Below are positions 34,067-62,658 of a stretch of DNA of 64,000 bases, in pieces. The DNA comes from Methanofollis aquaemaris (lineage in GTDB: Archaea; Halobacteriota; Methanomicrobia; Methanomicrobiales; Methanofollaceae). How positions within the stretch are numbered: position 1 is the first letter of the stretch; each line of letters starts with the position of its first letter. A program made the position numbers and the translations under genes. The stretch lies in assembly GCF_017357525.1 (NCBI RefSeq), contig NZ_CP036172.1, positions 620,001 to 684,000 on the forward strand, written 5' to 3'. The notes beneath the pieces were generated by a model. That model did no database searches. It had not been told where the DNA came from and was given only the letters and a program-made list of their open reading frames with translations.

Positions 34067-34073
34067 AGCCAAC

Positions 34074-40532: not shown

Positions 40533-42779
40533 TCAGATCTTTTGTCTGATCAGTAATACCACACCGGCCGCAAAGAGAGATACGACCCATAACGGCGAAG
40601 ATTGCTGTGGAGTGGTGGCGGGCACCTCGTTTCCGGTCGACCCGGATGCCGCTCTCTCCTGCGCGACCTGCGCATCCCTACCTGGCACTCCGGCGATGGC
40701 AAAGATGGAGAGACCATCTGAAGATGCTGAGAACTCCTGGTAACCATCTCTCACCGATCCCGCATCGGTGGCGAGCGGTGTCCATGTGCTCCCAGTATAA
40801 CGCATCAGAGTAACATCGCGAGGCTCAAGGCCCTGTTCCTCCATCCAGGAGGGGGGGACGCGGAAGGTGACCACAAGTGATGTCGGGTCGGCCCTCGCAC
40901 CACTCAGACCGATGTCGAGATAGCGATAGACCGGGGCATCAGGGGCCTGCATCGTACCAGCAGTTTCCAGATCACGCACTTCAACATGGAAGGGGGTACG
41001 CTGCTCAGGGAGGGTCACCGAGACTTTCTTGACAATCGGATTGTCGGCGATGAAGGCCCGGGTCATCGGTGCAACTGATGATCCGGAATCTCCATCCCCG
41101 CTGCTCGGGGGAGTGCCGCTGATTGTGACCAGGACCGCGACCCTGCTTTCCAGCACCCCGCCGCTGGCGGCATCCTTCGTCGCCCGCAGCATGGCGATGT
41201 TCTCTCTGGGGAAGAGTACTGGCAGGACATCGAGATCTGCCGTCAACACGCTACCCTCGGCCCGCAGGGCGTCGGTCCACTCGCGGTCATTGAACCCGAG
41301 GATGCCGGCCGACCCAGTGCCCGTCACCAGGAGACGGGCGGCGGCAGTCTGATCGAGGTTGAGGGAATCGTCGAAGATAGCCCGACTCACAGCGTCGTCC
41401 TCAAAGACTCCTCCCTCTTCATCGATGGCAACGGCATCGCAACCGGCCACGACCTGCCAGATGATCTCAGGGAGGGCCGGGTCTTCACGCACCAGGAGAA
41501 GTGCACCGCCGTCGATGGTGCAGACTTCATCACCGGTCCCGGCGTTCTCGACGGTGACGGCAGAGTCACCCGACCTGATCCCTTCAAGCTTGAAGACGTA
41601 GGTCGCCGCCACCGGCGCGTCCTTCTTCCCTGCCCGGTCGGTGTAGGTCTCATCCGGCTCGACCGTCTTCCCGTCGATCCGGACGGTCAACTGCGGTTCG
41701 GTTCCGGTGCCATCTTCTCCTTTCTTCGAATCGCTCACAAAGAGATAGAAGACCGCAGTCTTGAGCGTCCCGGTGCCGTTCCCGGCGTTGAAGGTCAGGG
41801 TCGCGCGCTCGCCTGCCGCCAGGTTTCCACCGGTGCCGGCGACCGGCAGGAGAGAGACTGAGCCATGCAAACACTTGCCGGTGGGGGCTTCCATCTCGTT
41901 TCCGGAGAGACCAGAGGCATCCGATGTCCCGTCACTCCCCCCGTCAGGCGAGACATCGCCCGCGCCCGGAGGTGCCGTCCCGACGACGGAATATCCGCTG
42001 CTCCCTACCCCTGAGACCCGGTTGGTCCAGGAGATGCCCAGGCCCTGGTTGGACTGGTTGCACCAGCCATAGGAGTTGAAGGAGGCATAGGTGGGGAGGT
42101 TCTCGAACTCGTACTCGATTTTTACGGCGCCGTTGTCTCTCAGGTTCTCGATCAGAGAGTTTTCACCAAGTGTCCCGGCATGGAGGTCGATATAGACGGT
42201 GTGGAAGGGGTTTGAACCGTCGGAGACGTCCTGGCCGTAATAGATCGGATATGCCCCCGGTTGATTGTTCCCGGCGGGTTTCCAGGTCTGCGGGCTGTAC
42301 ACAAAGTTGTCCTTCGTGATCGTCCCCTCATACGTGCCGTCGACATACTCAACCTCGTCTGCTGCGGGTGGTGCGTTCACCACCGGCGTCGGGGTCCACT
42401 GGTAGCCGCTCGCCCGGATATGGAGGGCAAAGTCGTCGGGAATAGTGCCGTTGATCGCGATCATCAGGATCATGTCGTCGGTGAACCCTCTCCCACCGGT
42501 GTTGGTGAGATAGAATATACCCGACTGTTCTTCGGTGGTCGTCACCTGTCCGTACGGTTCGCTCTCCGGGTCAGTGCTGATGTGGAGAGCGTTGAGCCCG
42601 CCGCCCTCGAACTTGAAGAATTTGGTCAGCCCGTCGGAGAGTTGCAGGTCGAAATTGCTGGTGCCCGGCATCGTGATCCCACCCACATCGTCGGCCGCAA
42701 CCGGAACGGCGCAGGCGGCGAGCAGGAGGATCACCAGTGCAAGAAGTGATCTTCCCATTTTTTTTCCGATATCATTCAT
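40533..42779 (-). CDS. Surface protein: LHI domain + DUF3344-like + PGF-pre-PGF-like
   Basis: A 748-residue exported protein. The signal peptide (1-29) is followed by one complete copy of the uncharacterised LHI domain (about 33-268): an alpha half with GGGLNALHISTDPE, GQVTTTEEQSGIFYLTNTGG and a beta half with DNFVYSPQTWKP, FENLPTYASFNSYGWC, SNQGLGISWTNR and SSGYSVVG. Residues about 300-560 are DUF3344-like (LKTAVFYLFVSDS ... GGALLLVRED), and 580-695 PGF-pre-PGF-like (VTFRVPPSWMEEQGLEPRDVTLMRY...). The C-terminus, TPQQSSPLWVVSLFAAGVVL then LIRQKI, is a sorting-type tail. Confidence 0.78.
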   Translation of the reverse strand: MNDIGKKMGRSLLALVILLLAACAVPVAADDVGGITMPGTSNFDLQLSDGLTKFFKFEGGGLNALHISTDPESEPYGQVTTTEEQSGIFYLTNTGGRGFTDDMILMIAINGTIPDDFALHIRASGYQWTPTPVVNAPPAADEVEYVDGTYEGTITKDNFVYSPQTWKPAGNNQPGAYPIYYGQDVSDGSNPFHTVYIDLHAGTLGENSLIENLRDNGAVKIEYEFENLPTYASFNSYGWCNQSNQGLGISWTNRVSGVGSSGYSVVGTAPPGAGDVSPDGGSDGTSDASGLSGNEMEAPTGKCLHGSVSLLPVAGTGGNLAAGERATLTFNAGNGTGTLKTAVFYLFVSDSKKGEDGTGTEPQLTVRIDGKTVEPDETYTDRAGKKDAPVAATYVFKLEGIRSGDSAVTVENAGTGDEVCTIDGGALLLVREDPALPEIIWQVVAGCDAVAIDEEGGVFEDDAVSRAIFDDSLNLDQTAAARLLVTGTGSAGILGFNDREWTDALRAEGSVLTADLDVLPVLFPRENIAMLRATKDAASGGVLESRVAVLVTISGTPPSSGDGDSGSSVAPMTRAFIADNPIVKKVSVTLPEQRTPFHVEVRDLETAGTMQAPDAPVYRYLDIGLSGARADPTSLVVTFRVPPSWMEEQGLEPRDVTLMRYTGSTWTPLATDAGSVRDGYQEFSASSDGLSIFAIAGVPGRDAQVAQERAASGSTGNEVPATTPQQSSPLWVVSLFAAGVVLLIRQKI

Positions 42780-42916
42780 CGTATTCCCACCATTGAAAGA
42801 AAGAGGGTTCAGGATATGTTCCTCTATCTTCTTCTCGACAGATGAAATTTGTTTTTTGATAAAAGTTTATTAGATCCGATTAACTGCACCGGAGCGCACA
42901 AAAAAAAAAGAAAGAT

Positions 42917-45900
42917 TCAGTCCCTCTTCAGGAGGAAGAGGGCGCCGATAGCGACGATGGAGAGGAACCAGGGGATCGGCGACTTCTGCGTCGGCGCCGC
43001 GGTCGCCGGGGCAGTCGTCTCCTCGACGGCCGGTGCTGGTGCATCGGTCACGACGGGGGTCGGCGTGACCGTCTCCCCGGCCTGCCCGGCGGCAGAGGTC
43101 GTCTCACCGCTCGCGATCGCGAAGTACGAGAACCCGGAGGCCTCGGCCGAGTACAGGGCCAGGCCGTTCTCTTCCTTCACGAACGTGGTCTTGAGCGGTT
43201 TCCAGGCTCCGTCCTCGTACTGGAGGAGGACGATGTTGGCGGTGGAGAGGCCGTGCGCCTTGAGCCAGGTCGTCGGCACCGCGAACTCGAGGGTCACTCC
43301 GGCGATGGCCGCGGGATCGGTGTGGTACAGGCTGGCGTCAATGAGTTGATAGGTCTGACTCTCCGGCTTCGGGACGTCCTTCGGGAGAGACGCCTTCTTC
43401 ACCGTCACCAGCATGTCGTTGATCGAGTCATATGCCTCGACTGTGATCCTGCTGATCGCTGTCTTGCTCACCGCGAAGGTCTGCGACTCGCCTGCGGGGA
43501 GGGAACCCGAGATCGAGGTGACGTCGGAACTCCCACTTCCACCAGAGGAGGAAGAGGACGAGCCAACCGGTTCCCCGCCACTGGAGGTTGCTGATACCGC
43601 GGTCAGACCAAAGATCGAGAGGCCCTTCGGCGAGAAGGCCTCGAAGACCATATTCCCGTCGGCGTCGGTGCCGACAAGGACGGTCTTCAGGACTTCCTTG
43701 GTGCCGTCCTCAGCGGACCTGATGATCCTGACCGCGTCGACGCCACCGTGGGCGTCGACCCACGCCGGGCTCACGGTCATGGTGATCGTGGCGTCGGCGA
43801 TGTCCTGGCCATTTGCAAGGTTCGTCTTCACGATGTTCATCGTGTAGGCGACCGCGTCCACCTTCAGTCCGTCGCTGCTGGCAGCGAGCTGGAATGCAGA
43901 CTGTGCATCGGTCGACGCGTTTCTGGTGATGGTGGTGCGGAGTTCTGCACCCTCGGGGAGGTTGGTCAGGTTTGCCGCAATGGATCCGGTGACGACTCCG
44001 GCGGCCCCTGCATCGAGGTCTATGGGATTCGTATCGAGCCTGATCCCATCAAGAGCGCCTTCCACCGTGGTACCACTGACAGAAGTGTTGCCCGTGGTCG
44101 TGATGGTGAGGTTGAAGGTGTCCCTTCTGATCTTGATCTCGTTTCCTGAGACTGTGACCCCATCGATTGAAGTGTCGACGGAGATGTTCTTCTTGCCGTC
44201 GCCACCGTTCTTGACCGTGCATCCGGGAACGTCAAGAACCGACTTCTCGGTCTTCTGATCCTCCTGAGGAGCAAGTGCCCATCCGAGCACTGAATACCCA
44301 CTCATCTCTGGCCTGCAGAGATCGTTTGTCCACGCCACCATGGTCTTCCCATTGTTGGAGTTTGCACAGTAGGCGTACGCATTGAAGGCAGCACGGTTTT
44401 CGAGGTTCTCGATGGTGTACTCGACCCTGACCGCCCCGCTGTCATTCAGGCCGGGAATGCCGCTGCCCGAACCGAGCACGCCGGCGTTCAGGTCGATGAA
44501 CATGAACCTGAAGGTGTCTTCGGTGTCGGTCATGTTCTGCCCGGCAAAGACCGGGTAGTCGGGGTTCCCGCAGGGCCTCCAGATCTGTGGGCCATAGATG
44601 AAGTCATTCACGGTGAAGGTTTCATCCAGCGAGCAGAGGTTGTAGGTGATCTCGTCGGCCAGGGGTGCTTTGTTCGACCGTTCCGGCGACATGTCAGGAG
44701 TCCAGGAGTATCCGCTCGCCTTTACACGGACGGTAAGATCCTGCGGGACGGTCCCGTTCACGGCGAGCATCAGGATAATATCGTCATCGTATCCCTTGCC
44801 ACCGGTGTCGGTCACATAGAATACTCCGGACTGTGTGTCCGTGACGGTTACCTGACCGCCGGCAACATTCGGGTCGGTGCTGATGTGGAGAGCGTTGAGG
44901 CCGCGATTCTCTCCTGCGAACCTGATATTGTAACAGGTGTTGTCGTAGTAGCCCTTGAAATCATTGAACCTGACGCCGGCGTCGTTCGCCACCGTCACGT
45001 AGATGTTGTTGTAGTCTGAGAGGACGCCGCCTCCGGGCATCACCGTCACCATGGCGATTCCCGGCATGCCGCCGCTCGTTGCGGTCACATAGGTCCTGCC
45101 CGGAGTGTGGGCCGAGAAGACACCATGGTCATTGACAGTTCCGACGGTCTCGTTGCTGCTCGACCAGGCAAACGAGACGCCTGCAACCCTTGCACCGGTC
45201 TCATTGTAGCGGGCTGCGGTGAAGGTCTGCCTGCCGCCGTCGTTCACCAGGGAGATGCACGGGGTGACGGACACTGAAGAGCGGTCGCTTCCGGTGGCAT
45301 ATACCACAACAGGCAGGGCAAGGGGATAGTTCTCGATGTTTGCCGGGGTGATCGCATAGGCGGTATCGACGATACCGTTCCCATCCGTGTCCGTAACTCT
45401 GGGGGTGTCCCAGTAGTTCCCGACGATGCCAGTGTAGACCTTTCCGTTGTAGAAATACTCCACCGGAGCGGAGGACTGCCAGACTTGCGCAATGTCGCCG
45501 AAGATGGTGCCTTTATTGTTGATGAATTCGTTGAGGAAGAACACGTTGTCCTTCGTCGTGTCGCCTGCGATGTAAAAAGCATTTATGGATGAATTTACGA
45601 TGCAATTGGAGGAGAATACGTTGTTCATGGGGCCACCCACACGACCGCCGGTATAACCTGCCATCAGGCCGATTCCCCTACCGTACGCGTCGATAGTGTT
45701 CCCGGTAAAGGTGTTCCCCTCGGATACGCCATTCAGATAGATCCCATACAGTCCGGAAACTGAGCCGCCGATCAGCACGTTGTCTGCCACCGTCGTCTCC
45801 GTGATCCCATCCAGCCTCATGGCGGAAGTCCTGGCGCCCGAGATTACATTCTCCCGGATGAGGTTGCCCTTTGCGGAGAGCGAGATCCCCGTGGCGCAGC

Positions 45901-48709
45901 CCTTTTTCTCAGCAGTGCTAGAGATGGTGTTGCCGACGACCGTGGTGTTTTCACAGGGGTTCCTGGCGTACACCCCATTGTTACAGTCGGTAAATGTATT
46001 CTCCCTGATGGTGCTGTTGGGAGAGTCTTCCATGTAGATGCCGGCATAGCCGTTCTGATCAAAGACGTTGCCGGCGATCACGGTCTTCTCTGCACCGAGA
46101 AGGGCGATGCCCCACTTGCTTATCCCCATGACATTGTTCGTGAGGGTGCAGTGGTCGGCGCCATTGAGTTTGATCGAAGCATAGTTCCGACCGGGCCCTG
46201 TTTGTCCACCTTCGATGGTGAAGCCCTCGATGGTCACGCCGTCCACCGTGACGGTGAACACGTCTTGCAGGGGGGTGGGGGCATGGACGACGGTCCCTTC
46301 AGGGCCGTGCTCGGACCGGATCGTCAGGAATTTGTTGACGGTCACGCTCTCGTTGTAGGTCCCGTTTTTCACGACGATATTGTCGTAGTCGTACACTCCG
46401 TCTACCGCCGCCTGGATGGTGGTGAAGTCGCCGCTCCCCGAGGGATCAACATACCTGACCGCCGGTTCATGGGAGGCCGGGATGACGCGGACGGTTGCCG
46501 AACCGGTCACGCCTTTGTCGGATGCCGTGACCGTCGTCGTTCCTTCCTTTATGGCATTGAAGGTGCCGTTCTCGTCCACCGTACCGACGGTCTCGTTGCT
46601 GCTTGTCCAGGTGTAGACAGAGGTCGGCATGGTGTTGCCATACTGATCGAGGGTTGCTGCGCTGAACGTACCGGTCCGGCCTTCCTTCAGCACGAGCAGT
46701 GACGGCGTGATCGTGACCTTCGCCGGCCTGGGGAGATCGAGCTGGATCTTCTTTACGATGGCGTACTGTGAGTAACCGTCCTGGATGACGATCGGCCAGT
46801 ATGTGCCAGGACGGATCTCCTTCCCGTCGAGTTTGTTGGCGACGACAGGAACAGAGTCTCCGCCGAGTTTGTCACTAAAAATATCGACGGTGCGGTCCCG
46901 TCCTCTTTTCTCATAGGTGATGGTGACCTTGTAGTTCTTTGATGCAAGTGTCTCGTTCAGCGTTGCCGGGTCATCATCGTCGATCAGGCCGACCAGCGAG
47001 GAGAGAGACGTCCCTTCCCAGAAATTCCCTGATGAAGTGCATGACGCCGGGTTTTCTGTCGAGATGTCGATGAATCCGGACCTGTTGACGGTCTCGATAC
47101 CGGCGCCTTCGAGGGTGAGTGTCCAGTCGGGTGCGGTCTGCACGGTGACGTTCACGGTGTCCGAAACTCCGCCGAATGCCGCCTTCACAGAGGTTTTGCC
47201 CGCGGCCAGAGCCGTAAAGAGGCCGTCCTCATCGACAGTTCCGACGGTTTCGTTGCTGCTTGTCCATGTGAGTTTGAGACCGTCCATCTCTGCGCCCGAG
47301 GCATCGACGGCAGTTGCGGTGAACTGCACGGCCTCATCAGGATAGAGAGATGAGAGTTCATGGGGGTCGAGCGTAATTGAAGTCGGCGGGGGTGTCTTCA
47401 TCACGCTGACGAGAGTCTCTGCAACGATGGCGCCACTCTTCGCGGTGATCGTGGTCTCGCCTTCGACATGGGCTCTAAAGAGCCCCGCGGTATCGATGGT
47501 ACCGACGGTCTCGTTGCTGCTCGACCAGACGACCTCAGCACCCGGGATCGGTCTGCCGTCGGCATCGGAAGCACTTGCACTGAACTGCAGGGTCTTGTCG
47601 ATGATGACGGTCGGGGACTGCGGGGTGATGACGATCGATGCCACTTCAGGGGTATCTTCAGTAACAGTAACCTCTGCGGTAGCGGTCGCGTCCCCGCCTG
47701 CAACGGTAACGGTTGTCGTCCCCGCAGCATTCGCAGTGAAGAGGCCGGTATGAGCATCAACGGTCCCAACGGTCTCGTTGCTGCTCGACCAGAGGAGCGA
47801 TGCACCGGGCATCACCTGGTTGTTCTGGTCATATGCAGTAGCATTGAACTGCAGGGTTTCGCCGGTCCCGAGGACCACGGAGGTAGGGGCGAGTGTCAGA
47901 GCGGTCACAACCCGCGGGATGCCCCGCACCGTATAGCCGCTGCTCCCGACTCCGGTTACACAATTCGTCCAGGAGATGCCGTCGTCCTGATTGGAGGCCT
48001 TGCAGTAGCCATAAATGTCGAAGGCCGCAAAGGTTTCCAGGTTCTCGAAGGTGTAGTCGACCCTGGCCGCGCCGAGGTCGGTCGTGTTCGAGTCGCCAGA
48101 GATGTGCCCCACACCGAGGTCGACGAACATGAGCCTGAAGGTGTTCTCAGTGTCGCTCATGTCCTGGCCATCGAAGATAGGATAATTGTCAGGTTTGGGG
48201 GAGGGTCTCCAGAGTTGTGGACCATAGATGAAGTCATCCCTGGTGAAGGTCTCGTCCACCGCCCCTTCGACATACTCCTTGTCATCAAGAGAACCGGGTG
48301 ACCAGCGGTAGCCGCTCGACGTGATGTGAACAGCAAAGTCGTCGGGGATCGTCCCATTCACCGCAAGCAGGAGGACGACTTCGTCGTTGTACCCTCTGCC
48401 TCCGGTGTTCGTGAAGTAGATGGTGCCGGACTGGTCTGGCGAGTTCGTGACCTGACCTTTCCTTACTTCAGGGTCGGTAGTGACGTGCATGGCGTTGAGG
48501 CCGCCGCCGTCGCACTTGATGTAGTAGGTGTCGTTCCCGAAGGTGTCGAATCGTGCACCTCCGTCGTTTGCGACCTGCACATGGATGTGCCGGTAGTCGG
48601 GCAGCGGTTCGGCCGCTGCCGGTGTGATCACAAGAGCAATCAGGAGGACGAGCATCGCCGCAGCGATGAGCGTTCCCACTGACCTCATGCATTTTCGTTG
48701 GTCAACCAC
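42917..48709 (-). CDS. Giant surface protein: two LHI domains, five Ig-like domains and a beta-helix
   Basis: An exported protein of 1930 residues. Approximate order: signal peptide; LHI domain 1 (35-258); three bacterial Ig-like (BIG2-type) domains, each with SSNETVGT (268-520); sulfite-oxidase-like domain (525-655); BIG2 (660-740); right-handed beta-helix of the NosD/CASH type (750-1130; DFTTIQAAVDG, then repeated 'N.I...G..L' turns); BIG2 (1135-1220); LHI domain 2 (1225-1480); a PGF-pre-PGF-like pair (1485-1860); an Ala/Thr/Pro linker; and TQKSPIPWFLSIVAIGALF with tail LLKRD. The start is GTG at 48709, with GGAG nine bases upstream. Likely an S-layer-associated adhesin or binding protein. 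Confidence 0.78.
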   Translation of the reverse strand: MVDQRKCMRSVGTLIAAAMLVLLIALVITPAAAEPLPDYRHIHVQVANDGGARFDTFGNDTYYIKCDGGGLNAMHVTTDPEVRKGQVTNSPDQSGTIYFTNTGGRGYNDEVVLLLAVNGTIPDDFAVHITSSGYRWSPGSLDDKEYVEGAVDETFTRDDFIYGPQLWRPSPKPDNYPIFDGQDMSDTENTFRLMFVDLGVGHISGDSNTTDLGAARVDYTFENLETFAAFDIYGYCKASNQDDGISWTNCVTGVGSSGYTVRGIPRVVTALTLAPTSVVLGTGETLQFNATAYDQNNQVMPGASLLWSSSNETVGTVDAHTGLFTANAAGTTTVTVAGGDATATAEVTVTEDTPEVASIVITPQSPTVIIDKTLQFSASASDADGRPIPGAEVVWSSSNETVGTIDTAGLFRAHVEGETTITAKSGAIVAETLVSVMKTPPPTSITLDPHELSSLYPDEAVQFTATAVDASGAEMDGLKLTWTSSNETVGTVDEDGLFTALAAGKTSVKAAFGGVSDTVNVTVQTAPDWTLTLEGAGIETVNRSGFIDISTENPASCTSSGNFWEGTSLSSLVGLIDDDDPATLNETLASKNYKVTITYEKRGRDRTVDIFSDKLGGDSVPVVANKLDGKEIRPGTYWPIVIQDGYSQYAIVKKIQLDLPRPAKVTITPSLLVLKEGRTGTFSAATLDQYGNTMPTSVYTWTSSNETVGTVDENGTFNAIKEGTTTVTASDKGVTGSATVRVIPASHEPAVRYVDPSGSGDFTTIQAAVDGVYDYDNIVVKNGTYNESVTVNKFLTIRSEHGPEGTVVHAPTPLQDVFTVTVDGVTIEGFTIEGGQTGPGRNYASIKLNGADHCTLTNNVMGISKWGIALLGAEKTVIAGNVFDQNGYAGIYMEDSPNSTIRENTFTDCNNGVYARNPCENTTVVGNTISSTAEKKGCATGISLSAKGNLIRENVISGARTSAMRLDGITETTVADNVLIGGSVSGLYGIYLNGVSEGNTFTGNTIDAYGRGIGLMAGYTGGRVGGPMNNVFSSNCIVNSSINAFYIAGDTTKDNVFFLNEFINNKGTIFGDIAQVWQSSAPVEYFYNGKVYTGIVGNYWDTPRVTDTDGNGIVDTAYAITPANIENYPLALPVVVYATGSDRSSVSVTPCISLVNDGGRQTFTAARYNETGARVAGVSFAWSSSNETVGTVNDHGVFSAHTPGRTYVTATSGGMPGIAMVTVMPGGGVLSDYNNIYVTVANDAGVRFNDFKGYYDNTCYNIRFAGENRGLNALHISTDPNVAGGQVTVTDTQSGVFYVTDTGGKGYDDDIILMLAVNGTVPQDLTVRVKASGYSWTPDMSPERSNKAPLADEITYNLCSLDETFTVNDFIYGPQIWRPCGNPDYPVFAGQNMTDTEDTFRFMFIDLNAGVLGSGSGIPGLNDSGAVRVEYTIENLENRAAFNAYAYCANSNNGKTMVAWTNDLCRPEMSGYSVLGWALAPQEDQKTEKSVLDVPGCTVKNGGDGKKNISVDTSIDGVTVSGNEIKIRRDTFNLTITTTGNTSVSGTTVEGALDGIRLDTNPIDLDAGAAGVVTGSIAANLTNLPEGAELRTTITRNASTDAQSAFQLAASSDGLKVDAVAYTMNIVKTNLANGQDIADATITMTVSPAWVDAHGGVDAVRIIRSAEDGTKEVLKTVLVGTDADGNMVFEAFSPKGLSIFGLTAVSATSSGGEPVGSSSSSSGGSGSSDVTSISGSLPAGESQTFAVSKTAISRITVEAYDSINDMLVTVKKASLPKDVPKPESQTYQLIDASLYHTDPAAIAGVTLEFAVPTTWLKAHGLSTANIVLLQYEDGAWKPLKTTFVKEENGLALYSAEASGFSYFAIASGETTSAAGQAGETVTPTPVVTDAPAPAVEETTAPATAAPTQKSPIPWFLSIVAIGALFLLKRD

Positions 48710-48750
48710 GTAAAATCACTCCGCATAGTAGATAGGATCATAAAAACGGC

Positions 48751-48760
48751 AATATTATAG
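48751..48760 (-). promoter_or_regulatory. TATA-like box for the 1930-residue surface gene
   Basis: The minus strand reads CTATAATATT about 46 bases upstream of the GTG start, which would give a leader of roughly 20 bases containing the GGAG ribosome site. Nearby GGGC...GCCC inverted bases (48770-48784) may form a small hairpin. The assignment is by eye. Confidence 0.35.
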
Positions 48761-48884
48761 CCATTTTTGGGCAAAGTTAGCCCTTAAATTATAGTTCAAT
48801 GCTCGATCAATTAGTTTTTGCCATTTTGAGCACAAAGTTAAATGAACCAAATTAACCCGAAGAGAAATAGGGAGATTGGAGTTT

Positions 48885-51800
48885 TCACGCCTTTTTCAGG
48901 ATGAAAACAACTCCAATCGCCACAAGAGAGAGTACCCAGAAGACCGGCGACTTCTGCGTCGGCGCCGCGGTCGCCGGGGCAGTCGTCTCCTCGACCGTTG
49001 CAGGTGCATCGGTCACGACGGGGGTCGGCGTGACCGTCTCACCGGCCTGCCCGGCGGCAGAGATGATCTCACCGGTCGCGATTGCGAAGTACGAGAACCC
49101 GGAGGCCTCGGCCGAGTACAGGGCCAGGCCGTTCTCTTCCTTCACGAACGTGGTCTTGAGTGGTTTCCAGGCTCCGTCCTCGTACTGGAGGAGGACAATA
49201 TTGTCAGTGGAGAGGCCGTGCTCCTTGAGCCAGGTCGTCGGCACCGCGAACTCGAAGGTCACCTCGGCGATCGCGGAGGGGTCGGCCCGGTGGAGAGCGG
49301 TCTCAACGATCTCGAAGGTCGTCTGGCCGGGGGCATCCATGCCCTTCGAGAGAGAGGTCTTCTTCACCGTCACCAGGAGGTCGCCGATCTCGTCATATGC
49401 GTCGACGGTGATCCTGCGAACCGCCGTCTTGCTCACCACAAAGGTCTGCGACTCCCCGGCAGGGATGGAGCCCGAGATCGCGGCGACGTTGGAACTGCTA
49501 CTCCCGCCGCCGGAGGAAGAGTGCGATGCAGGCGGTTCGGCGGACTTCGTGACCGCGGTCAGACCAAAGACCGAGAGACCCTTCGGCGAGAAGGCCTCGA
49601 AGACCATATTCCCGTCTACGTCGGTGCCGACAAGGACCGTTTTCAGGACTTCCTTGGTGCCGTCCTCCGCGGACCTGATGATCCTGACCGCGTCGACGCC
49701 GCCGTGCGCATCGACCCATGCCGGGCTCACGGCCATGGTGATCGTGGCGTTCGCGATGTCCTGACCGTTCGCGAGGTTGGTCTTCTTGATGTTCATCGTG
49801 TAGGCAATGGCGCCGAGGTTCAGGCCGTCGGTGGTGGCTGCGAGCTGGAAGGCGCTCCGCGCGTCGGCTGAGATGTTCTGGGAGACCGTGGTCTCAAGGG
49901 CGGCGCCCGCGGGGATGCCGGTGAGGTTCGCGCCGATCGAGGCAGAAACCGTGCCGACGGTGTCGAGGGTAGTGGTGATGGGGTTGGTCTCCAGGGCGAT
50001 GCCGGTGACGGTACCGTTCACGGTGCCGTTCACAACCGTGGGAGCGCCCTCGGTCTCGATGGTGAGGCTGAAGGTATCCTCATCGATCTGGATGGTGTTA
50101 CCGGAGACGGTGGCGTTGGTGGCGGTGGTGTTAATCCTGACCTCGTGCGTGCCGTCGCCGATCTCCGTGATGTTACAACCCGGAACGTCGAGCGACGAGT
50201 CCTTCGTCTGGTCGCCGTGCGGCGGGGTCACCGTGACCATGGCGGTGCTGAACACGCCGTTGGCAGAGGCAGTAACCGTCGTCGTGCCGGCCTTGTGGGC
50301 GATGAAGACGCCGGTGGCGTTCACCGTGCCCACGGTGGTATCGGACGACGTCCACCCGAAGGTGAGGGGCAACATTTCAGCGCCGTTGTCGTCATAGGCA
50401 GTGGTGGTGAACGTCAGAATGTCGCCAGGAGCAAGTGAAGAAGTCTGCGGCGTAAGGACGATCGAGGCCGGGGCGAGAATGACGCCATCCTTCCAGGGGC
50501 CACAAAGGGGATAATTGTCGATCTGTGACGGCGACGACGAGATGACGAAAGGTTCGTCGCCGATACCGTCGTAATTCGAGTCATTACAGGTAAAGGATGG
50601 GCCCCAGAAGTTTCCGAGGTACGAGGGCCGTGCTTCACCGTGGACCATATAGTTCACCGGTTCGGTGGAGTTCCACTGCCAGGATGCAGCAGGTTGATTG
50701 GCTATCAATTCAAGTGTGGATCGGGTGTTGAACGTGTTGAGGTATGCAGTGTTTGAACCACCTTTCCTGATGAAGAAGGCGTATTGTCCACCCGTGAACG
50801 TGTTGGACACGAAGAGGTTGTCAGTGGCGTAATATGGCACAATGCCGCCAACGCTGAGATTTCTGAACTGGTTTTCTGAGATAATATTCGATTCCGACCG
50901 ATAAAGGTACAGGCCATAGCAGCTGGGATCATGGATCTCGTTCCTTGTTATAGTGTTCTCTGTGGCATACGTGATGCAGATCGGACTTAGTGCATCTGTT
51001 GCATCGGTGATGTTGTAGAGAACATTGTTGGAGATCGTGTTCCCGCTTGCTCCCCTGCCGTTTTTGTCCCATAAGGACACCTGACCATCCAACCTGATCC
51101 CTCTGGCGTACACATCATGAACGGTGTTCCCGCTGATGGTTGAGTTGTGTGCTTTTCTGATGCAAATGCCTAAATAGTCGTCGAAAACCTCATTTCCTGC
51201 AACAGTTAGGTTATCGCATTCATAGGAATAGATGGCATTTCGCCAGTTCCACATATCGATACTGGGATCATCATTTGGGTTGGGAGTTGTCCCGGTGAGA
51301 GAGAATCCCTCGACGGTGACATTATCCGATTTTATTGTGACGATGTTACCGGTCGGATCCGCCGGCCGGATGATCGTCGATGACGGCCCGTTCATCGATC
51401 CAAGATGCACCGACCGGTCGACGACGACATTTTCAACATAGGTGCCGTCCCTGACGATGATGCGATCGCCATCGAACGCTGCGTCGACCGCCGCCTGGAT
51501 GGTGGTGAAATCTCCTCCGCCGGAGGCATCGACAGACAAGGTGACCGGGCCCTCTGGGTGGACCGTGATGGTGGTGTTGCCTTTCACGGTGCCATTTGAG
51601 GCGGTGACCACCGTTTTGCCGGCGGTAAGGGCGGTGAAGTAGCTGGTGGCGTTCACCATACCGACCGTCTCGTTGCTGCTCGTCCAGGCGAAGACGACCC
51701 CTTCCATCTGGTTTCCGTACTGGTCGATGGCCGTTGCAGTGAGCGAAAGTCCATTCCCTTTGAGGACTGTGGGCGCCTCCGGTACAAGAGAAATAGTGGT

Positions 51801-54800
51801 GAGTCTGGGTGCGGTGTTTTCAGTGATCGCATAGAGATTCCTGTCAGTCGATCCGACGTAGATCGTGCCGTCGGCGCCGATCGCCGGAGCGTTGAAGAAC
51901 CGCGGGCTCACCGGGTCGAGAAAAGTCCACTTCAGGGTGCCGTCCTGACCAAAGGCGTAGAGATTCTTGTCATTTGAGGAAATATAGACAGTTCCCATTG
52001 CATCGACAACCGGCGCCGAAGCGATGGCGGCTCCAGTCGCGTACGACCACTTCAGAGTTCCGTCTGGGTTGAGAGCCGTGATGTTGAAATTTGCCGACCC
52101 TGCATAGATCATGCCATCTGATCCGATCGCCGGTGACGCAACGGAACCGCCGATTGCGTATGACCATTTCAGCGTGCCGTCAGGGTTCAGAGCGTAGAGA
52201 TTGCCGTCGTTCGATCCGACAATGATCGTACCGTCTGAGGCGATGGCCGGGGCTGCGTTGACCGCACCGCCAGTAGTGTACGACCACCTCAGGGTACCGT
52301 CAGGGTTGACGGCGTAAAGTTTCATGTCGGCAGAACCGGCGTAGATCGTGCCGTCAGAGTCGACTGCCGGAGCTGTGCTTACTGCTCCACCGGTGGTGTA
52401 CGACCATTTCAGCGTGCCGTCCGGGTTCACGGCGTAGATCTTCATGTCGGATGAGCCGGCATAGATCGTGCCGTCGGAACCGATCGCCGGGGCCGAGGAG
52501 ACGGCACCGCCGGGCGTAAACGTCCACTTAAGCGTGCCGTCGGGGCTCACGGCATAGATCTTCATGTCACGGCAGCCGAAGTAGACAGTGCCCTCGCTGT
52601 CGATCGCCGCCGCCGTATAGATCTGATGGCCGGCGGTATAGGACCACTTCAGCGTGCCGTCTGGGTTGACGGCGTGAAGACTCCTGTCCCTGGAGCCAAC
52701 ATAAATCGTTCCGTTCTGGTCGATCACTGGCTGGATCGTGAGGAAACCAGCCGTAGTGTACGACCATTTCTGCATCGGGTCGCTCGGTCCGGTATATGGG
52801 CTCTGTCCGGTATGCCTCAAGTCATGCCCTGCCATCGGCCATGCCGAGTCGGCAAGACCGCCGGAACGTTCGGTGACGGTCACCGCAGCGCTGCCCGAGA
52901 CCGCACCGTACGAAGCGGTGACGGTGGTCGTGCCAGCGGCGAGAGCAGCGAAGGTGCCGGTGGCGTCAACGGTGCCGACTGTCTCGTTGGAACTCGACCA
53001 GGTGAAGACGAGGCCGGTCATCTCATTCCCATCGGCATCGAAGGCGGTGGGGACGAACTGCTGATTTTCACCGACGGTGAGGGATGCCGCCGCCGGTGCT
53101 GCCTCGATGCGGGAAGGCTTCGGGCCGGGCCCTGCGCCGACGACCGAGTACCCGCTCATCGTTTTGTCAGGGGTGAGGGCATTGGACCACGCAACCATGT
53201 CATCGCCGTTGTTCGAGTTTTTGCAGTAGGCATAGACGCTGAAGGCCGCAAAAGTGTCGAGGTTCTCGAAGGTGTAGTTGATCCGCACCGCACCCCGGTT
53301 CTCCAGGTCGGCGTTCGGTCGGAGTACGCCGGCATTCAGGTCGATGAACATCAGATGGAAGGTGTTCTCCTTGTCCTCCAGATCTTGCCCGGCATAGAGG
53401 GGATAATCACACTCGTTCCCGGTCGGTTTCCAGATCTGCGGGCCGTAGATGAAGTCCTCCGTGGTGAAGACCTCGTCAAGGGCCGAAGACTGGTAGGTGA
53501 CCGTGTCGAGGGGCGGGGCCTGGTTGCACTCCGGGTTCGGGGTCCAGGTGTAGCCGTCCGCTTTCACACGGAGCCTGAGGTCTTCGGGGATGCTGCCGTT
53601 CACGGCGACCAGCAGGATGATCTCGTCTTCGTATCCCTTGCCCCCGGAATCAGTCGCATAGAAGGTGCCGCTCTGGTTCTCCGTCACGGTCACCTGCCCG
53701 AAGTTTACCGCAGGGTCGGTGGAGATGTGGAGGGCATTGAGGCCGCGGTTGATTCCTTCGAACCTGATGTTGTAGGTCTGGTTGCCGAAGGCGTCGTACT
53801 TCACGCCGGCGTCGTTGGCGACTTTGAAGAAGATGTGGTTGTAGTCGGGAAGGGGCTCTGGCCCGCTGGGCGCCGCGGTGACGGTCACTTCAGCCGTACC
53901 TTTGACGGTGCCGTTTGCCGCGGTGATCGTGGTCGTGCCCGCGGCGACGGCGGTGAAGGAACCGGTTTCGTTCACGGTGCAGACCGTCTCGTTGCTGCTC
54001 GACCACACAAAGGTCACGCCGTCCATCGGTCGGTCTCTCTGGTCGAGAGCGGTGGCGGTGAACTGCATCGAGGTGCCGATCCCGACGTCAGCGCTCGCGG
54101 GAGTGACATTGATCGAGGTCAGGACCGGGAGGACGCCGATAACGGCATAACCGGACGATCCTGTTGCGCTCAGGCGGTTGGTCCAGCGGACGCCCTGTCC
54201 TTGGTTCGAGGAGACCGTATAGACGTAGCCGTCGAACGCGGCGAAGGTCTCCAGGTTTTCGAAGGAATACTCGATCCTGATCGCACCGTTGTCGGTGATC
54301 GACTGTTCAGAGAAGTCTGGCTGGGATAGCGTGTTCGCACCGAGGATACCTGCGTTCAGGTCGATGAACATGATCGAGAAAGTGTTCCCCGTATCCGCCA
54401 TGTCCTGCCCGTCGAAGATCGGGTAATCGACCGCCGCGGCGGGTCTCCAGATCTGCGGACCGTAGAGGAAGTCATCCTTTGTGAACGTCTCATCCAGTGC
54501 GTCAGGCACATAGGTGACGTTCTCGAATGTCGGATAGGTGCCCTTGAGTACAGGTGTCCACCGATAGCCGCTCGCCTTGATGCGAACCTGAAAGTCATCG
54601 GGAAGAGTGCCGTTGATCGCCAGCATCAGGATGCCGTCGTCGTCCCAGCCGCGGCCGCCGGTGTCGGTGAGATAGAAGACACCCGACTGGTCGTTACTGA
54701 AAGTGACCTGACCATTGGAGTTCGAGGCATCGGTCGTAATATGAAGAGCGTTCAGACCCTGTGTGTTACTCTGAGTTGGGCTGAAGAAATGATAGGTGTT

Positions 54801-54992
54801 GTTGCCGTAGTCGTTGAACCGGGCGTTTTCGTTGTTCGAGATCCGTAACAGCGTATCCTTGTTCGACGGCATAACCGTCGTACCGGTATCGGCCGCCGCC
54901 GGGACGATACTGATGATCATAAAGAGCAGGAGGAACGCTACGGCGATCCACCGCAGGTGCCCCCCCCCGCTTTCAGGATAATCTTTTCTCAT
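48885..54992 (-). CDS. Giant surface protein: two LHI domains, beta-propeller, beta-helix and Ig-like domains
   Basis: An exported protein of about 2035 residues. Approximate order: signal peptide; LHI domain 1 (30-280); BIG2 (287-370); LHI domain 2 (380-620); BIG2 (628-705); PQQ-type beta-propeller (710-1060) with eight blades marked by 'KWSYTTGG', preceded in seven by PDGTLKW or a variant; BIG2 (1063-1145); NosD/CASH beta-helix (1150-1495); BIG2 (1508-1585); PGF-pre-PGF-like pair (1600-1970); Ala/Thr linker; and TQKSPVFWVLSLVAIGVVF then ILKKA. The ATG at 54992 is preferred, because the GGAGGAG before it lies inside the longer frame that starts at 55010. Confidence 0.78.
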   Translation of the reverse strand: MRKDYPESGGGHLRWIAVAFLLLFMIISIVPAAADTGTTVMPSNKDTLLRISNNENARFNDYGNNTYHFFSPTQSNTQGLNALHITTDASNSNGQVTFSNDQSGVFYLTDTGGRGWDDDGILMLAINGTLPDDFQVRIKASGYRWTPVLKGTYPTFENVTYVPDALDETFTKDDFLYGPQIWRPAAAVDYPIFDGQDMADTGNTFSIMFIDLNAGILGANTLSQPDFSEQSITDNGAIRIEYSFENLETFAAFDGYVYTVSSNQGQGVRWTNRLSATGSSGYAVIGVLPVLTSINVTPASADVGIGTSMQFTATALDQRDRPMDGVTFVWSSSNETVCTVNETGSFTAVAAGTTTITAANGTVKGTAEVTVTAAPSGPEPLPDYNHIFFKVANDAGVKYDAFGNQTYNIRFEGINRGLNALHISTDPAVNFGQVTVTENQSGTFYATDSGGKGYEDEIILLVAVNGSIPEDLRLRVKADGYTWTPNPECNQAPPLDTVTYQSSALDEVFTTEDFIYGPQIWKPTGNECDYPLYAGQDLEDKENTFHLMFIDLNAGVLRPNADLENRGAVRINYTFENLDTFAAFSVYAYCKNSNNGDDMVAWSNALTPDKTMSGYSVVGAGPGPKPSRIEAAPAAASLTVGENQQFVPTAFDADGNEMTGLVFTWSSSNETVGTVDATGTFAALAAGTTTVTASYGAVSGSAAVTVTERSGGLADSAWPMAGHDLRHTGQSPYTGPSDPMQKWSYTTAGFLTIQPVIDQNGTIYVGSRDRSLHAVNPDGTLKWSYTAGHQIYTAAAIDSEGTVYFGCRDMKIYAVSPDGTLKWTFTPGGAVSSAPAIGSDGTIYAGSSDMKIYAVNPDGTLKWSYTTGGAVSTAPAVDSDGTIYAGSADMKLYAVNPDGTLRWSYTTGGAVNAAPAIASDGTIIVGSNDGNLYALNPDGTLKWSYAIGGSVASPAIGSDGMIYAGSANFNITALNPDGTLKWSYATGAAIASAPVVDAMGTVYISSNDKNLYAFGQDGTLKWTFLDPVSPRFFNAPAIGADGTIYVGSTDRNLYAITENTAPRLTTISLVPEAPTVLKGNGLSLTATAIDQYGNQMEGVVFAWTSSNETVGMVNATSYFTALTAGKTVVTASNGTVKGNTTITVHPEGPVTLSVDASGGGDFTTIQAAVDAAFDGDRIIVRDGTYVENVVVDRSVHLGSMNGPSSTIIRPADPTGNIVTIKSDNVTVEGFSLTGTTPNPNDDPSIDMWNWRNAIYSYECDNLTVAGNEVFDDYLGICIRKAHNSTISGNTVHDVYARGIRLDGQVSLWDKNGRGASGNTISNNVLYNITDATDALSPICITYATENTITRNEIHDPSCYGLYLYRSESNIISENQFRNLSVGGIVPYYATDNLFVSNTFTGGQYAFFIRKGGSNTAYLNTFNTRSTLELIANQPAASWQWNSTEPVNYMVHGEARPSYLGNFWGPSFTCNDSNYDGIGDEPFVISSSPSQIDNYPLCGPWKDGVILAPASIVLTPQTSSLAPGDILTFTTTAYDDNGAEMLPLTFGWTSSDTTVGTVNATGVFIAHKAGTTTVTASANGVFSTAMVTVTPPHGDQTKDSSLDVPGCNITEIGDGTHEVRINTTATNATVSGNTIQIDEDTFSLTIETEGAPTVVNGTVNGTVTGIALETNPITTTLDTVGTVSASIGANLTGIPAGAALETTVSQNISADARSAFQLAATTDGLNLGAIAYTMNIKKTNLANGQDIANATITMAVSPAWVDAHGGVDAVRIIRSAEDGTKEVLKTVLVGTDVDGNMVFEAFSPKGLSVFGLTAVTKSAEPPASHSSSGGGSSSSNVAAISGSIPAGESQTFVVSKTAVRRITVDAYDEIGDLLVTVKKTSLSKGMDAPGQTTFEIVETALHRADPSAIAEVTFEFAVPTTWLKEHGLSTDNIVLLQYEDGAWKPLKTTFVKEENGLALYSAEASGFSYFAIATGEIISAAGQAGETVTPTPVVTDAPATVEETTAPATAAPTQKSPVFWVLSLVAIGVVFILKKA

Positions 54993-55225
54993 ACGTGTGA
55001 CTCCTCCCATTTCAGGCTAAAAGAACGGACAATATGCGCGTTTTAGTTAATGCATTCTTTTTAATTGCCACGAATGGTTAATGATAATTTTATCGGGCGA
55101 TGTTGAAATAAATATGTTGCCATCTTTTCTCAAGTATAACAGATGCAATTAACAAATTGATGCGATGATACTCTTCCCAACGGATTGAAGAAGGATAAAA
55201 AAAGAAAAATCAGGGATTTACACGC

Positions 55226-56050
55226 TCAGAGGCTCACCGTATAGCCACTGCTGCCCGCATCCAAGACCCTGTTTGTCCAGGAGATCCCCTGGCCCTGATT
55301 GGAACTGAGGCACCAGGCATAGGCATTGAATGCACCAAATCCCGTGAAGTTTTCAAGGGTGTAGTCGACTTCCGCCATACCGCCACTGCTCAGGGAACTG
55401 TTTATCCCGAGTGCTCCGACGTTCAGATCGATGAACATCATTTTCATTTTGAAGGGATCGGTGGTTTGGGACATATCCTGCCCATAGAATAGCGGATAAT
55501 TGACGACGCTTGACATTTTATAGATCTGAGGACCGTACGAGAAATTCGCCGGGCCGAATGTATCATACAGTGCTGCAGGGACATAGGTAATATCATTGTT
55601 CGAGGGAGGGAGTTTGTTGGTGGTCGGCGTCCACTGGTATCCACTTGCATTGATAGTGAGAGTGAAGTCATCGTCAGAACTGTTTGTGGCAAACATCAGG
55701 ATGATATCGTCGTCATAGCCTCTGCCGCCAGTGTCAGAAACATAGAACGTCCCTTCGCAGAACCCATTATTTCCAGTAACACTGGTCGTCTGCCCATAAG
55801 GCAGAGAGGGATCGGTCGTGATGTGGAGAGCGTTGAGGCCGCCGCCATCGAACTTCATGTAATAGTTGTCCTCATAAAAGTCATAAAATCTCGTTCCATT
55901 GTCGTTTGCTACTGATATGTTGCAGTGTTTGTACGGCAGTGTAGTCAAAGCAGCCGCAGGTACGACCGTGATCGCAACCATCATCAGGACCATAGAAACC
56001 ACAAAAAGGCCCCTGATGCCAGAGTAACCGGTAATCTCTTTTTCTTTCAT
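55226..56050 (-). CDS. Secreted single LHI-domain protein
   Basis: A 274-residue protein: a signal peptide (about 1-34), then one complete LHI domain in the normal order. The alpha half contains DGGGLNALHITTDPS and GTFYVSDTGGRGYDDDIILMF; the beta half contains ANFSYGPQIYKM, YTLENFTGFGAFNAYAWC, SNQGQGISWTNR and SSGYTVSL, after which the protein stops. It has no anchor and is the minimal version of the domain, so it is useful for defining its limits. A ribosome site GGTGA precedes ATG. It is the most upstream gene of the island. Confidence 0.78.
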   Translation of the reverse strand: MKEKEITGYSGIRGLFVVSMVLMMVAITVVPAAALTTLPYKHCNISVANDNGTRFYDFYEDNYYMKFDGGGLNALHITTDPSLPYGQTTSVTGNNGFCEGTFYVSDTGGRGYDDDIILMFATNSSDDDFTLTINASGYQWTPTTNKLPPSNNDITYVPAALYDTFGPANFSYGPQIYKMSSVVNYPLFYGQDMSQTTDPFKMKMMFIDLNVGALGINSSLSSGGMAEVDYTLENFTGFGAFNAYAWCLSSNQGQGISWTNRVLDAGSSGYTVSL

Positions 56051-56772: not shown

Positions 56773-57767
56773 GTGCAGAATAACACAATACCGACAGAAG
56801 AAGGAAACGCTCAGATACAGGAGTGCAGAGACGCCCTTATACAGGTAAAAGAGGAAATGCAACGGGTGATCGTCGGGCAGGATGAGACGATCAGAGACCT
56901 CCTCACCGCCCTCGTCGCGGGGGGCAACGTCCTCCTCGAAGGGGTGCCGGGTCTGGCAAAGACCCTCACCGTCAGGACGCTCGCCGCCTGCACCGCATGC
57001 TCCTTCGCGCGCATCCAGTTCACGCCCGACCTCCTCCCCTCGGATATCACCGGCACGACTGTCTACCGCCAGCACGACGGCGTCTTCTCCCTGGTGAAGG
57101 GACCGGTCTTCCACAACATCGTCCTGGCAGACGAGATCAACCGCGCCCCGCCGAAGGTCCAGTCGGCCCTCCTCGAAGCGATGCAGGAGCGGCAGGTCAC
57201 CATCCAGGGCGAGACCTGTGTCCTCCCAGACCCGTTCTTCGTCCTGGCCACCCAGAACCCGATCGAGTCCGAAGGAACCTACCCCCTCCCCGAGGCCCAG
57301 ACCGATCGCTTCCTCTTCAAACTCATCATGGACTATCCTGGAGTGGAGGACGAGGTCGAGATCCTCGACCGGTTTGCCGCCAGGACCGAGGTCGCCCCTG
57401 CCTGTGTCCTCACCGTCCCCGAACTCCAGAACATTCAGGCCACCGCACGCGCCGTCCGCGCCGACCCGGCAGTGCGGGAGTACGCCACCAGGATCGTGGA
57501 CGCCACCCGGCACCCCGACATATATGCCCTCAAGACCGGCGAGTACATCGAGTGGGGCGCCTCGCCGCGCGCCACCATCTCCCTGGTGCTGGGGGCCAAG
57601 GCCCGCGCCCTCCTGGAGGGGCGCACCTACATCGTCCCCCACGACATCAAGGCCGTTGCCCACAACGCCCTGCGCCACCGCATCCTTCTCACCTACACCG
57701 CAGACGCCTGCGGCGTCAGGAGCGACGCGATCATCGACGAGGTGCTCGGTGTCGTCGAGGTGCCGTG

Positions 57768-57768
<1 letters not shown>
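56773..57768 (+). CDS. MoxR-family AAA+ ATPase
   Basis: A 331-residue AAA+ ATPase of the MoxR group: VIVGQDETI, Walker A LLEGVPGLAKT, FARIQFTPDLLPSDITG, Walker B VLADEINRAPPKVQSALLEAMQE and sensor FVLATQNPIESEGTYPLPEAQ(T)DRF. These enzymes act as chaperones with vWA proteins to mature or activate partner complexes, sometimes metal-cofactor enzymes. GTG is the predicted start at 56773; the next in-frame ATG would cut into the conserved helix. It is first of a four-gene operon with DUF58, vWA and BatD-like proteins. Confidence 0.92.
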
Positions 57769-58631
<863 letters not shown>

Positions 58632-59582
58632 GTGGCCGGATTCTCTCATCCCCTCTGGCTGCTCGGCCTCCTCGGCCTGCCTCTTCTGTATCTCCTCTAC
58701 CTCAGGGCAGAGAAGACACGGAAGAGAGAAGCACTACTCTTCTCCGGCGTGACCCTTGTCAGAGAAGCGATCGGGGAGACAAAACCTTCCAGACGACCGC
58801 AGGCTCTCTTCCTCCTCACCCTCCTTGCTATCGCCCTCCTGGTCACCGGCCTCGCCGGTCCCCACCTCCCGCTGGAAGGGATGCATGAAGGAGTCTCGGT
58901 GGTGCTCGCGATCGATACCTCGGGAAGCATGGCGGCGACCGACTACCCGCCAAACCGCCTCTCGTCTGCAAAGTCGGCCGCAGAAAAACTGCTCGACGGA
59001 CTGGAGAGCGAGGACTACGCGGGCGTCGTCATCTTCGAGAACGGTGCGATGAGCGCTGCCTACCTCTCACCCGACCACGAGCAGGTCATCGGAAAACTCC
59101 AGGCCATCAAACTCAGGGACGGCCCCACCGCCCTCGGCGACGGCCTCGCCCTCGCCGTGGACATGGCCGACGCCATCCCGAACCGGAAGAAGGTGGTCGT
59201 CATCCTCTCGGATGGGATGAACAATGCCGGCATCATCTCGCCGGCGCAGGCCGCCGGGTTTGCCGTGGAGCGGGGCGTCCGGGTCTACACCGTCGGCCTC
59301 GGGTCCGCAGGCCCGGTCGCCTTCGGGGCTGCGGAAGACGGATCCACTCAGTATGCCCGCCTCGACGAGAAGACGCTCAGGGAGGTGGCGGCGGCGACCG
59401 GCGGGAAATATTTCAGGTCGGTGGACGGCGACACCTTGCAGGAGATCTACGCCGCCCTGCCCGCCGAGATCGAGCGGGAACCCGAGGAGACCGATGTCGC
59501 CTGGGTCTTCTTCCTGACGGCCGTCATCGTTCTCCTCGCGGAATGCTGGCTGCGATATGGAAGGGGGCGGATCCTTCCATGA
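58632..59582 (+). CDS. vWA-domain membrane protein (BatA-like)
   Basis: A 316-residue membrane protein. Two N-terminal helices (about 7-25 and 58-76) precede a complete von Willebrand factor A domain with the MIDAS motif DTSGSM, the T of GPTALGDG and a downstream VILSDG; a C-terminal helix (VAWVFFLTAVIVLLAECW) closes the protein. The topology matches Bacteroides aerotolerance-type BatA: vWA domain between N- and C-terminal helices, with metal-dependent protein binding. It starts with GTG immediately after the DUF58 stop. Confidence 0.9.
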   Translation: MAGFSHPLWLLGLLGLPLLYLLYLRAEKTRKREALLFSGVTLVREAIGETKPSRRPQALFLLTLLAIALLVTGLAGPHLPLEGMHEGVSVVLAIDTSGSMAATDYPPNRLSSAKSAAEKLLDGLESEDYAGVVIFENGAMSAAYLSPDHEQVIGKLQAIKLRDGPTALGDGLALAVDMADAIPNRKKVVVILSDGMNNAGIISPAQAAGFAVERGVRVYTVGLGSAGPVAFGAAEDGSTQYARLDEKTLREVAAATGGKYFRSVDGDTLQEIYAALPAEIEREPEETDVAWVFFLTAVIVLLAECWLRYGRGRILP

Positions 59583-61866: not shown

Positions 61867-62658
61867 ATGGAATTTCGCACCAGAGTCGTCGTCGCCTTTG
61901 CGCTTCTCGTCGCGATCGCAGCAACGGCTCTGGCGGTCCAGATCTCTGCCGAGGGACTCTATGGCCCTGAAACCGGCCGCGAACCTCCGGTCAGTTCGGA
62001 CATGACCTTCTCGCGGGCCGACTTCCTCTACGGCCCGCAGGACTGGCGCCCGTACCTCACCCCCCTCTCCCTCAACACGCTCCCCGCCACCGGCGAGGAC
62101 GAGCAGTGGTATTTCATGCTCGTCAGACTCAACGAGACGCCGCAGGGCGGCAACCCGGCCCTGTATACTCTACGCTCGGTCGCCGTCGACTATGACTTCA
62201 AAGACCTCTCCGGGACTGCCGCCTTCTATCTGTACGGCAAAAGGGCCGGGAGCGGGAGGACATGGACCAGCAGACAGGAGGGATATGGAGCCTCCGGGCT
62301 CCTGGTCACGGGGACGGCCGCACCCGGCCGCGGGATGCCGCAGGCCTCCCCGTTCAAGCACACCGGCGAGTGGGTGGAGATGAGACTTGCCAACACCCAC
62401 GGCCTCGGCCCCGACGAAATCCCCACGGCGACCGTCGCCTTCTGGTTCCCGCAGAACAAAGTCGGGCAGGACGCCCTCCATATCACCACCGACCCAGCCC
62501 AACGCAAAGGCCAGGTCACCACCGACGCCGCCCCTTCGGGACGTTTCTTCATCACCCATACCGGGGGAAGCCAGGTCGGCGCTGTGTACCTCCTCGTCGC
62601 CGTGGACCGACCCCAACCCGACACCTTCTCACTCAGGCTCATGACGGAGGCGGTATGA
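61867..62658 (+). CDS. Secreted LHI-domain protein with circularly permuted halves
   Basis: A 263-residue exported protein (signal peptide about 1-28). It opens with what is the second half of the LHI domain elsewhere: FSRADFLYGPQDWRP, VDYDFKDLSGTAAFYLYG, TWTSRQ and YGASGLLVTG. The first half then follows: QDALHITTDPAQRKGQVTT, GRFFITHTGG and VYLLVAVDRPQPDTFSLRL. In the surface-island proteins the order is reversed. It has no anchor or sorting tail. The next gene, an ECF S component, starts four bases inside its end. Secreted capture of the transporter's ligand is inferred. Confidence 0.75.
   Translation: MEFRTRVVVAFALLVAIAATALAVQISAEGLYGPETGREPPVSSDMTFSRADFLYGPQDWRPYLTPLSLNTLPATGEDEQWYFMLVRLNETPQGGNPALYTLRSVAVDYDFKDLSGTAAFYLYGKRAGSGRTWTSRQEGYGASGLLVTGTAAPGRGMPQASPFKHTGEWVEMRLANTHGLGPDEIPTATVAFWFPQNKVGQDALHITTDPAQRKGQVTTDAAPSGRFFITHTGGSQVGAVYLLVAVDRPQPDTFSLRLMTEAV

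Follow-up and report, generated by a model that had tools for sequence, protein, structure and literature searches.

Introduction

Two groups of described systems come closest to the locus reported here. In the accounts given of the Isd haem relay (PMC4684392) and of secreted NEAT proteins (PMC2515342), one small beta domain, NEAT, recurs in surface proteins that are stalked or anchored, in secreted ones and beside an importer of the ATP-binding cassette (ABC) type. The nickel and cobalt transporters of the energy-coupling factor (ECF) type, CbiMNQO, NikMNQO and NikKMLQO, use extra membrane-bound subunits, namely CbiN, NikN and NikK/NikL (PMC2667541). Here we present LHI, a previously undescribed domain family of surface proteins in the archaeon Methanofollis aquaemaris, together with a circularly permuted sibling that is encoded within a predicted ECF transporter operon; the family and its permuted, transporter-linked member are both new. 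All positions, unless marked otherwise, refer to a stretch of 64,000 nucleotides (contig NZ_CP036172.1, forward strand, positions 620,001 to 684,000), which is called the window below.

The locus resembles the NEAT/Isd arrangement in the reuse of a small beta domain across these protein types, but LHI is archaeal, the importer is of the ECF and not of the binding-protein ABC type, and the transporter-side copy is circularly permuted. A sequence relation was not found, as none of 79 LHI members matches the NEAT family of Pfam. With the nickel and cobalt systems the locus shares a module of S, A and T components and an operon-encoded extracytoplasmic protein that has a membrane anchor; it differs in that the S component is of the YkoE type (PF09819), the extra subunit is an LHI protein and a gene for a TiaS paralogue leads the operon. 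Neither Pfam nor NCBIfam gives a match to the permuted protein, and its likeness to CbiN, NikN, NikK and NikL would be one of role only. We know of no surface-to-ECF relay described in Archaea.

The LHI domain family

A first-pass annotation, made from the letters of the window alone, had reported an uncharacterised domain that occurs six times in four genes, and this was borne out. Between 40.5 and 56.1 kb the minus strand has four genes that together contain the domain, about 235 residues long, six times, at the positions named in the annotation (Table 1). The copies have 47-51% pairwise identity to the first one and 51 invariant columns. An LHI profile searched against the source genome (2.75 Mb) matched each of these copies at E 1e-109 or better, which rules out chance. 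The landmark motifs listed in the annotation are for the most part kept in all copies, but GQVT reads GQTT in the 274-residue protein, and FENL and GSSGY are variable. The annotation counted the copies both as six and as seven: six are canonical, and the seventh is real but permuted and lies outside the range that had been annotated. Two additional canonical copies were found elsewhere in the chromosome (C1:1275287-1275982 and C1:1277524-1278237). They belong to a second LHI pair, far from the operon (L129, G000:C1:1270000-1285000), which consists of a 1739-residue surface protein and a 312-residue single-domain protein, and similar paired copies are present in related genomes. The close named relatives are metagenome-assembled genomes of Methanofollis (L040, 88% identity). 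A flag for an internal TGA in the single-domain gene was considered as readthrough and rejected, the TGA being the normal stop at the gene end.

None of the 79 LHI members matches a Pfam family above noise, the NCBIfam matches in the four genes scanned all fall outside the domain, and no PDB chain matches LHI by sequence. Searches of viruses and plasmids found no LHI. LHI is thus a real domain family that had so far not been described. DUF3344 (PF11824) was rejected as its identity: it is a separate domain at residues 338-551 of the 748-residue protein, downstream of LHI, and no LHI member matches PF11824. DUF3344, which has been listed as an ambiguous adhesin-like cluster (PMC9210967), occurs in one LHI protein and in another surface protein of the same cluster.

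Structure prediction with AlphaFold2, starting from an alignment with the domain of the 274-residue minimal protein as first row, gave a confident all-beta model of the canonical domain, with a predicted local distance difference test score (pLDDT) of 95.4 and a predicted template modelling score of 0.93. Foldseek delivered no match to this model at E <= 0.001 and VIA-align none at Z >= 8, and the fold is therefore left unassigned. The best structural neighbour is AvmM (PDB 7fe0/7fe5), with a Foldseek E of 1.2e-3 and VIA-align Z of 7.8-7.9 over about 140 residues at 3.3-3.4 A; at 10-12% identity, and with a Z that is below the meaningful threshold and within the range that VIA-align calls common, no function is drawn from it.

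The circularly permuted copy

The profile search of the source genome also returned two weak half-matches in swapped order within one small plus-strand gene, which encodes the seventh copy of the window. This copy is a circular permutant of the LHI domain. Compared with the normal LHI profile, the permuted family gives two separate profile-profile matches (E 6.8e-35 and 3.9e-34); against two LHI profiles placed end to end, a single alignment covers 231 columns (E 2e-67), and the best E value of a column-shuffled control for this doubled profile is 0.0034. The C-terminal half precedes the N-terminal half in 32 of 32 non-redundant permuted proteins. In canonical copies the halves are joined by the linker SGYxWTP...PP. 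Almost no permuted copy has this linker, which agrees with a permutation break at that place. Strands of the permuted model, whose pLDDT is only 67, follow those of the canonical model in permuted order.

When the permuted domains are re-ordered and 111 domains are put into one tree, a single branch (100/93) splits permuted from canonical copies in all bootstrap trees, so that one permutation event suffices; the tree is unrooted as to which form is older. Kept in both forms are, in the numbering of the 240-residue P0004 domain, G37, H42, G52, G66, F68, T71, G74, G75 and the stretch Y138-G-P-Q-x-W143-x-P145, as well as F172, Y196, F207, Y210, T225, N226, S234 and V238. Many of these residues may be structural, and H42 and the motifs YGPQxWxP and WTN are the natural candidates for a putative binding site. 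One contig of Methanomicrobiales from a family other than that of the source (G062:C15) holds two permuted genes, at 98472 and 119661, a pattern that a duplication of the operon would give.

Gene neighbourhood and protein architecture

The gene order TiaS paralogue, permuted LHI, EcfS is found in nearly every locus that reaches far enough; in loci of sufficient length EcfAA' and EcfT come next. One locus (L068), in which the permuted gene is near the locus end, shows only its upstream neighbour. The same operon order is seen in Methanomicrobiales, in Candidatus Argoarchaeum (L051) and in a genome outside the order (G257). PF09819 is matched by 19 of 20 EcfS members. EcfA matches ABC_tran and, below its equivalog cut-off, TIGR04520, and the second ATPase half is present; EcfT, the membrane protein downstream, was named from position and sequence. 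Judged by these matches, S, A/A' and T are encoded together in a complete ECF transporter operon. A solved relative of EcfS was not found, and phmmer matches of EcfS to PPR proteins seem to be due to chance similarity over a short stretch. The TiaS paralogue is tied strictly to the operon, and its substrate could hint at the transported compound.

Table 1. Coordinates of the LHI proteins, their domains and the adjoining genes in the window, with two genes of other genomes in the coordinates of their own loci
Feature	Position	Strand	Remarks
748-residue surface protein	40533-42779	-	LHI, DUF3344, PGF-pre-PGF, C-terminal hydrophobic anchor
LHI copy in 748-residue protein	41961..42650	-	canonical order
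1930-residue surface protein	42917-48709	-	two LHI, five Big_2, NosD-type beta-helix, PGF-pre-PGF, C-terminal anchor
First LHI copy in 1930-residue protein	47912..48613	-	
Second LHI copy in 1930-residue protein	44267..45031	-	
2041-residue surface protein	48885-55010	-	two LHI, four Big_2, PQQ-type propeller, beta-helix, PGF-pre-PGF, C-terminal anchor
First LHI copy in 2041-residue protein	54120..54884	-	
Second LHI copy in 2041-residue protein	53121..53861	-	
274-residue protein	55226..56050	-	signal peptide and one LHI domain (55229-55948)
MoxR AAA ATPase	56773..57768	+	first of a divergently transcribed run (DUF58, BatA, BatD-like); adjacent in most relatives
DUF58/vWA protein	57765..58631	+	
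BatA-type vWA membrane protein	58632..59582	+	
Membrane protein in BatD position, 498 residues	59543..61039	+	no confident family match
TiaS / methanogenesis marker 11 paralogue, 234 residues	61161..61865	+	kinase-like domain only; gene before permuted LHI
Permuted LHI protein, 263 residues	61867..62658	+	N-terminal hydrophobic anchor, C-half (profile 112-238), then N-half (profile 10-97)
EcfS, substrate-binding membrane component	62655..63209	+	PF09819 (ABC_cobalt/YkoE-type), 28.6 bits against a cut-off of 25.2
EcfAA' double ATPase, start	63190..64000	+	full length 484 residues, runs past window end; then EcfT
Canonical LHI protein of G118, 704 residues	L135 8730-10844	-	
Permuted LHI gene of G257	L128 (G257:C1:58000-75000) 8396-9193	-	

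The signal peptide and the anchors in Table 1 were identified by eye. The 274-residue protein has neither stalk nor C-terminal anchor and represents a small secreted form; single-domain open frames of this kind, of about 270-310 codons, recur in other genomes. One genome thus holds three export forms of the domain: secreted and single-domain, stalked and anchored, and membrane-anchored and permuted. Beside the operon it is the canonical form that has been amplified, both in stalked, anchored proteins and in the small secreted one.

Beyond the LHI genes, the minus strand at 34928-40312 encodes a 1794-residue PGF-pre-PGF surface protein with repeated stretches that match the molybdopterin-binding family Oxidored_molyb (PF00174, 47.7 bits) and a borderline match to DUF4430; modules related to its own stand alone at 34074-34880 and 28937-29788. 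At 29793-34072, also on the minus strand, a gene for a metallophosphoesterase resembling purple acid phosphatase lies beside that of a 1005-residue surface protein with DUF3344 and PEGA repeats.

Distribution and linkage

Among 392 genomes of the phylum, strong members of the EcfS subfamily (E < 1e-67) occur in 24, all 24 of which carry the permuted protein; G283 gives one more hit, the 25th, which at E 3e-11 is a distant one. Canonical LHI is likewise found in 24 of the 392, and 23 of these have the operon. Within the order Methanomicrobiales canonical LHI is present in about 46 of 232 genomes and the permuted protein in 39, as a full-length protein in 37, as a partial one at a contig start in one and in two frames in one. 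Most genomes of the order with canonical LHI and without the permuted gene are fragmented or incomplete. One genome of the source's own genus (G095) is without both forms.

Both forms share a contig in 33 genomes, and in each of these the distance from the permuted gene to the canonical copy closest to it is 1.9-11.0 kb, the chance expectation being about 9% within 20 kb per genome. Because the genomes are related, neither these linkage counts nor those of co-occurrence are independent trials.

Functional interpretation

We propose that LHI is a two-part, all-beta, ligand-binding domain of archaeal extracytoplasmic proteins. The permuted protein, probably co-transcribed with EcfS, would sit next to EcfS on the outside of the membrane, fixed there by its N-terminal anchor, and would serve as a substrate-capturing accessory subunit that feeds the ECF importer. 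The canonical copies, both stalked and secreted, would bind the ligand of the permuted protein as well and either hand it on inward or enrich it at the cell. Taken as a whole, this explanation is tentative, and we give it a probability of roughly 0.45. Its parts are not equally firm. It is highly probable that the permuted protein works as part of the ECF transporter; that the surface copies share its ligand falls a little short of an even chance. A relay from the surface copies to the importer is suggested by analogy with the Isd system, and the permuted protein would add to the extra subunits already known from ECF importers (PMC2667541). The broader picture is of three tiers of capture (secreted, stalked and membrane-anchored) made from one new domain, the transporter-side member stemming from a single ancient permutation, all working with an ECF importer in methanogens and in one ethane-oxidising relative; the odds are rather against it holding in full.

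The first-pass annotation had suggested a binding head on long stalks. This suits three of the four genes, those in which LHI is followed by Big_2, beta-helix, propeller or PGF-pre-PGF modules, but it leaves the anchorless 274-residue copy unexplained and overlooks the permuted copy in the ECF operon, which points to ligand capture for uptake over simple adhesion.

Among the alternatives the one that survives best is that canonical LHI domains are adhesin heads on long stalks, binding glycans or partner cells, and that the permuted copy shares only ancestry with them and has a separate role in the ECF system. The multi-domain stalks agree with this, as do the weak structural likeness of LHI to the Ig-like (immunoglobulin-like) adhesins CfaE and FnBPA, the variation of LHI copy number and sequence among close relatives, as is seen in adhesins, and the genome G118, which has LHI without the ECF operon. 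Adhesion does not, however, predict that all 33 of the 33 genomes have a canonical copy no more than 11 kb from the operon, nor the joint presence and absence of canonical LHI and operon, and it leaves the conserved anchorless single-domain copies and the shared invariant H and YGPQxWxP core unexplained. We regard this alternative as unlikely.

Less probable still is that the LHI proteins build or reinforce a coat on the cell surface and are assembled or tethered at the membrane by the MoxR-DUF58-BatA proteins and the permuted anchored copy, with the ECF genes being neighbours for some other reason. MoxR-vWA systems are known assembly chaperones, their genes adjoin the locus in many relatives, and PGF-pre-PGF and C-terminal anchors mark surface proteins. 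The MoxR-DUF58-BatA genes are, however, common and not constant: they were not found by the operon in the loci of G102, Candidatus Argoarchaeum and G257 and are reversed in G108 and G119, whereas TiaS paralogue, permuted LHI and EcfS stay together where visible. That the permuted LHI is instead a non-ligand-binding ECF accessory subunit, structural or gating, like CbiN in the cobalt system, with surface copies unrelated in role, would suit its strict gene position beside EcfS and the extra membrane-bound CbiN, NikN and NikK/NikL of nickel and cobalt systems (PMC2667541). Such a subunit would, however, need no exported domain of about 230 residues with the conserved core of the surface copies, and this reading is very improbable.

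Several observations weigh against a ligand-binding LHI that feeds the ECF importer. The LHI fold resembles many Ig-like adhesins as weakly as it resembles anything else, and the pLDDT of the permuted model is just 67. The genome G118, which is 99% complete, has canonical LHI and is without both the permuted protein and its EcfS, a single clean exception; conversely, G257 has the full operon and no canonical LHI, so the permuted form can stand alone. Gene adjacency may reflect the co-inheritance of a single genomic island instead of one pathway. A relay is less needed than in Gram-positive bacteria, since an archaeal cell with an S-layer has no thick wall that must be crossed.

As to the ligand of the proposed system, the YkoE-type EcfS hints weakly, by family membership, at a compound of vitamin size. 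No riboswitch that would name the substrate was found with Rfam in the window and five related loci. Thiamine auxotrophy was rejected as the reason for a YkoE-type EcfS, since 132 of the order's 135 good genomes encode ThiC, with the system or without it. Lack of ComA-type coenzyme M synthesis is non-discriminating, since ComA is absent in 135 of the 135.

Significance

Methanomicrobiales encode many large surface proteins without an assigned role, and one of their repeated domains is now tied to a specific transporter operon. By this link an 'unknown surface protein' becomes a testable uptake hypothesis with a defined partner. LHI also provides a clean natural circular permutation, of apparently one origin, that dozens of species have kept; most of the genomes contain the permuted form as well as the canonical one. 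Identification of the ligand would show how these archaea gather a scarce nutrient from their surroundings.

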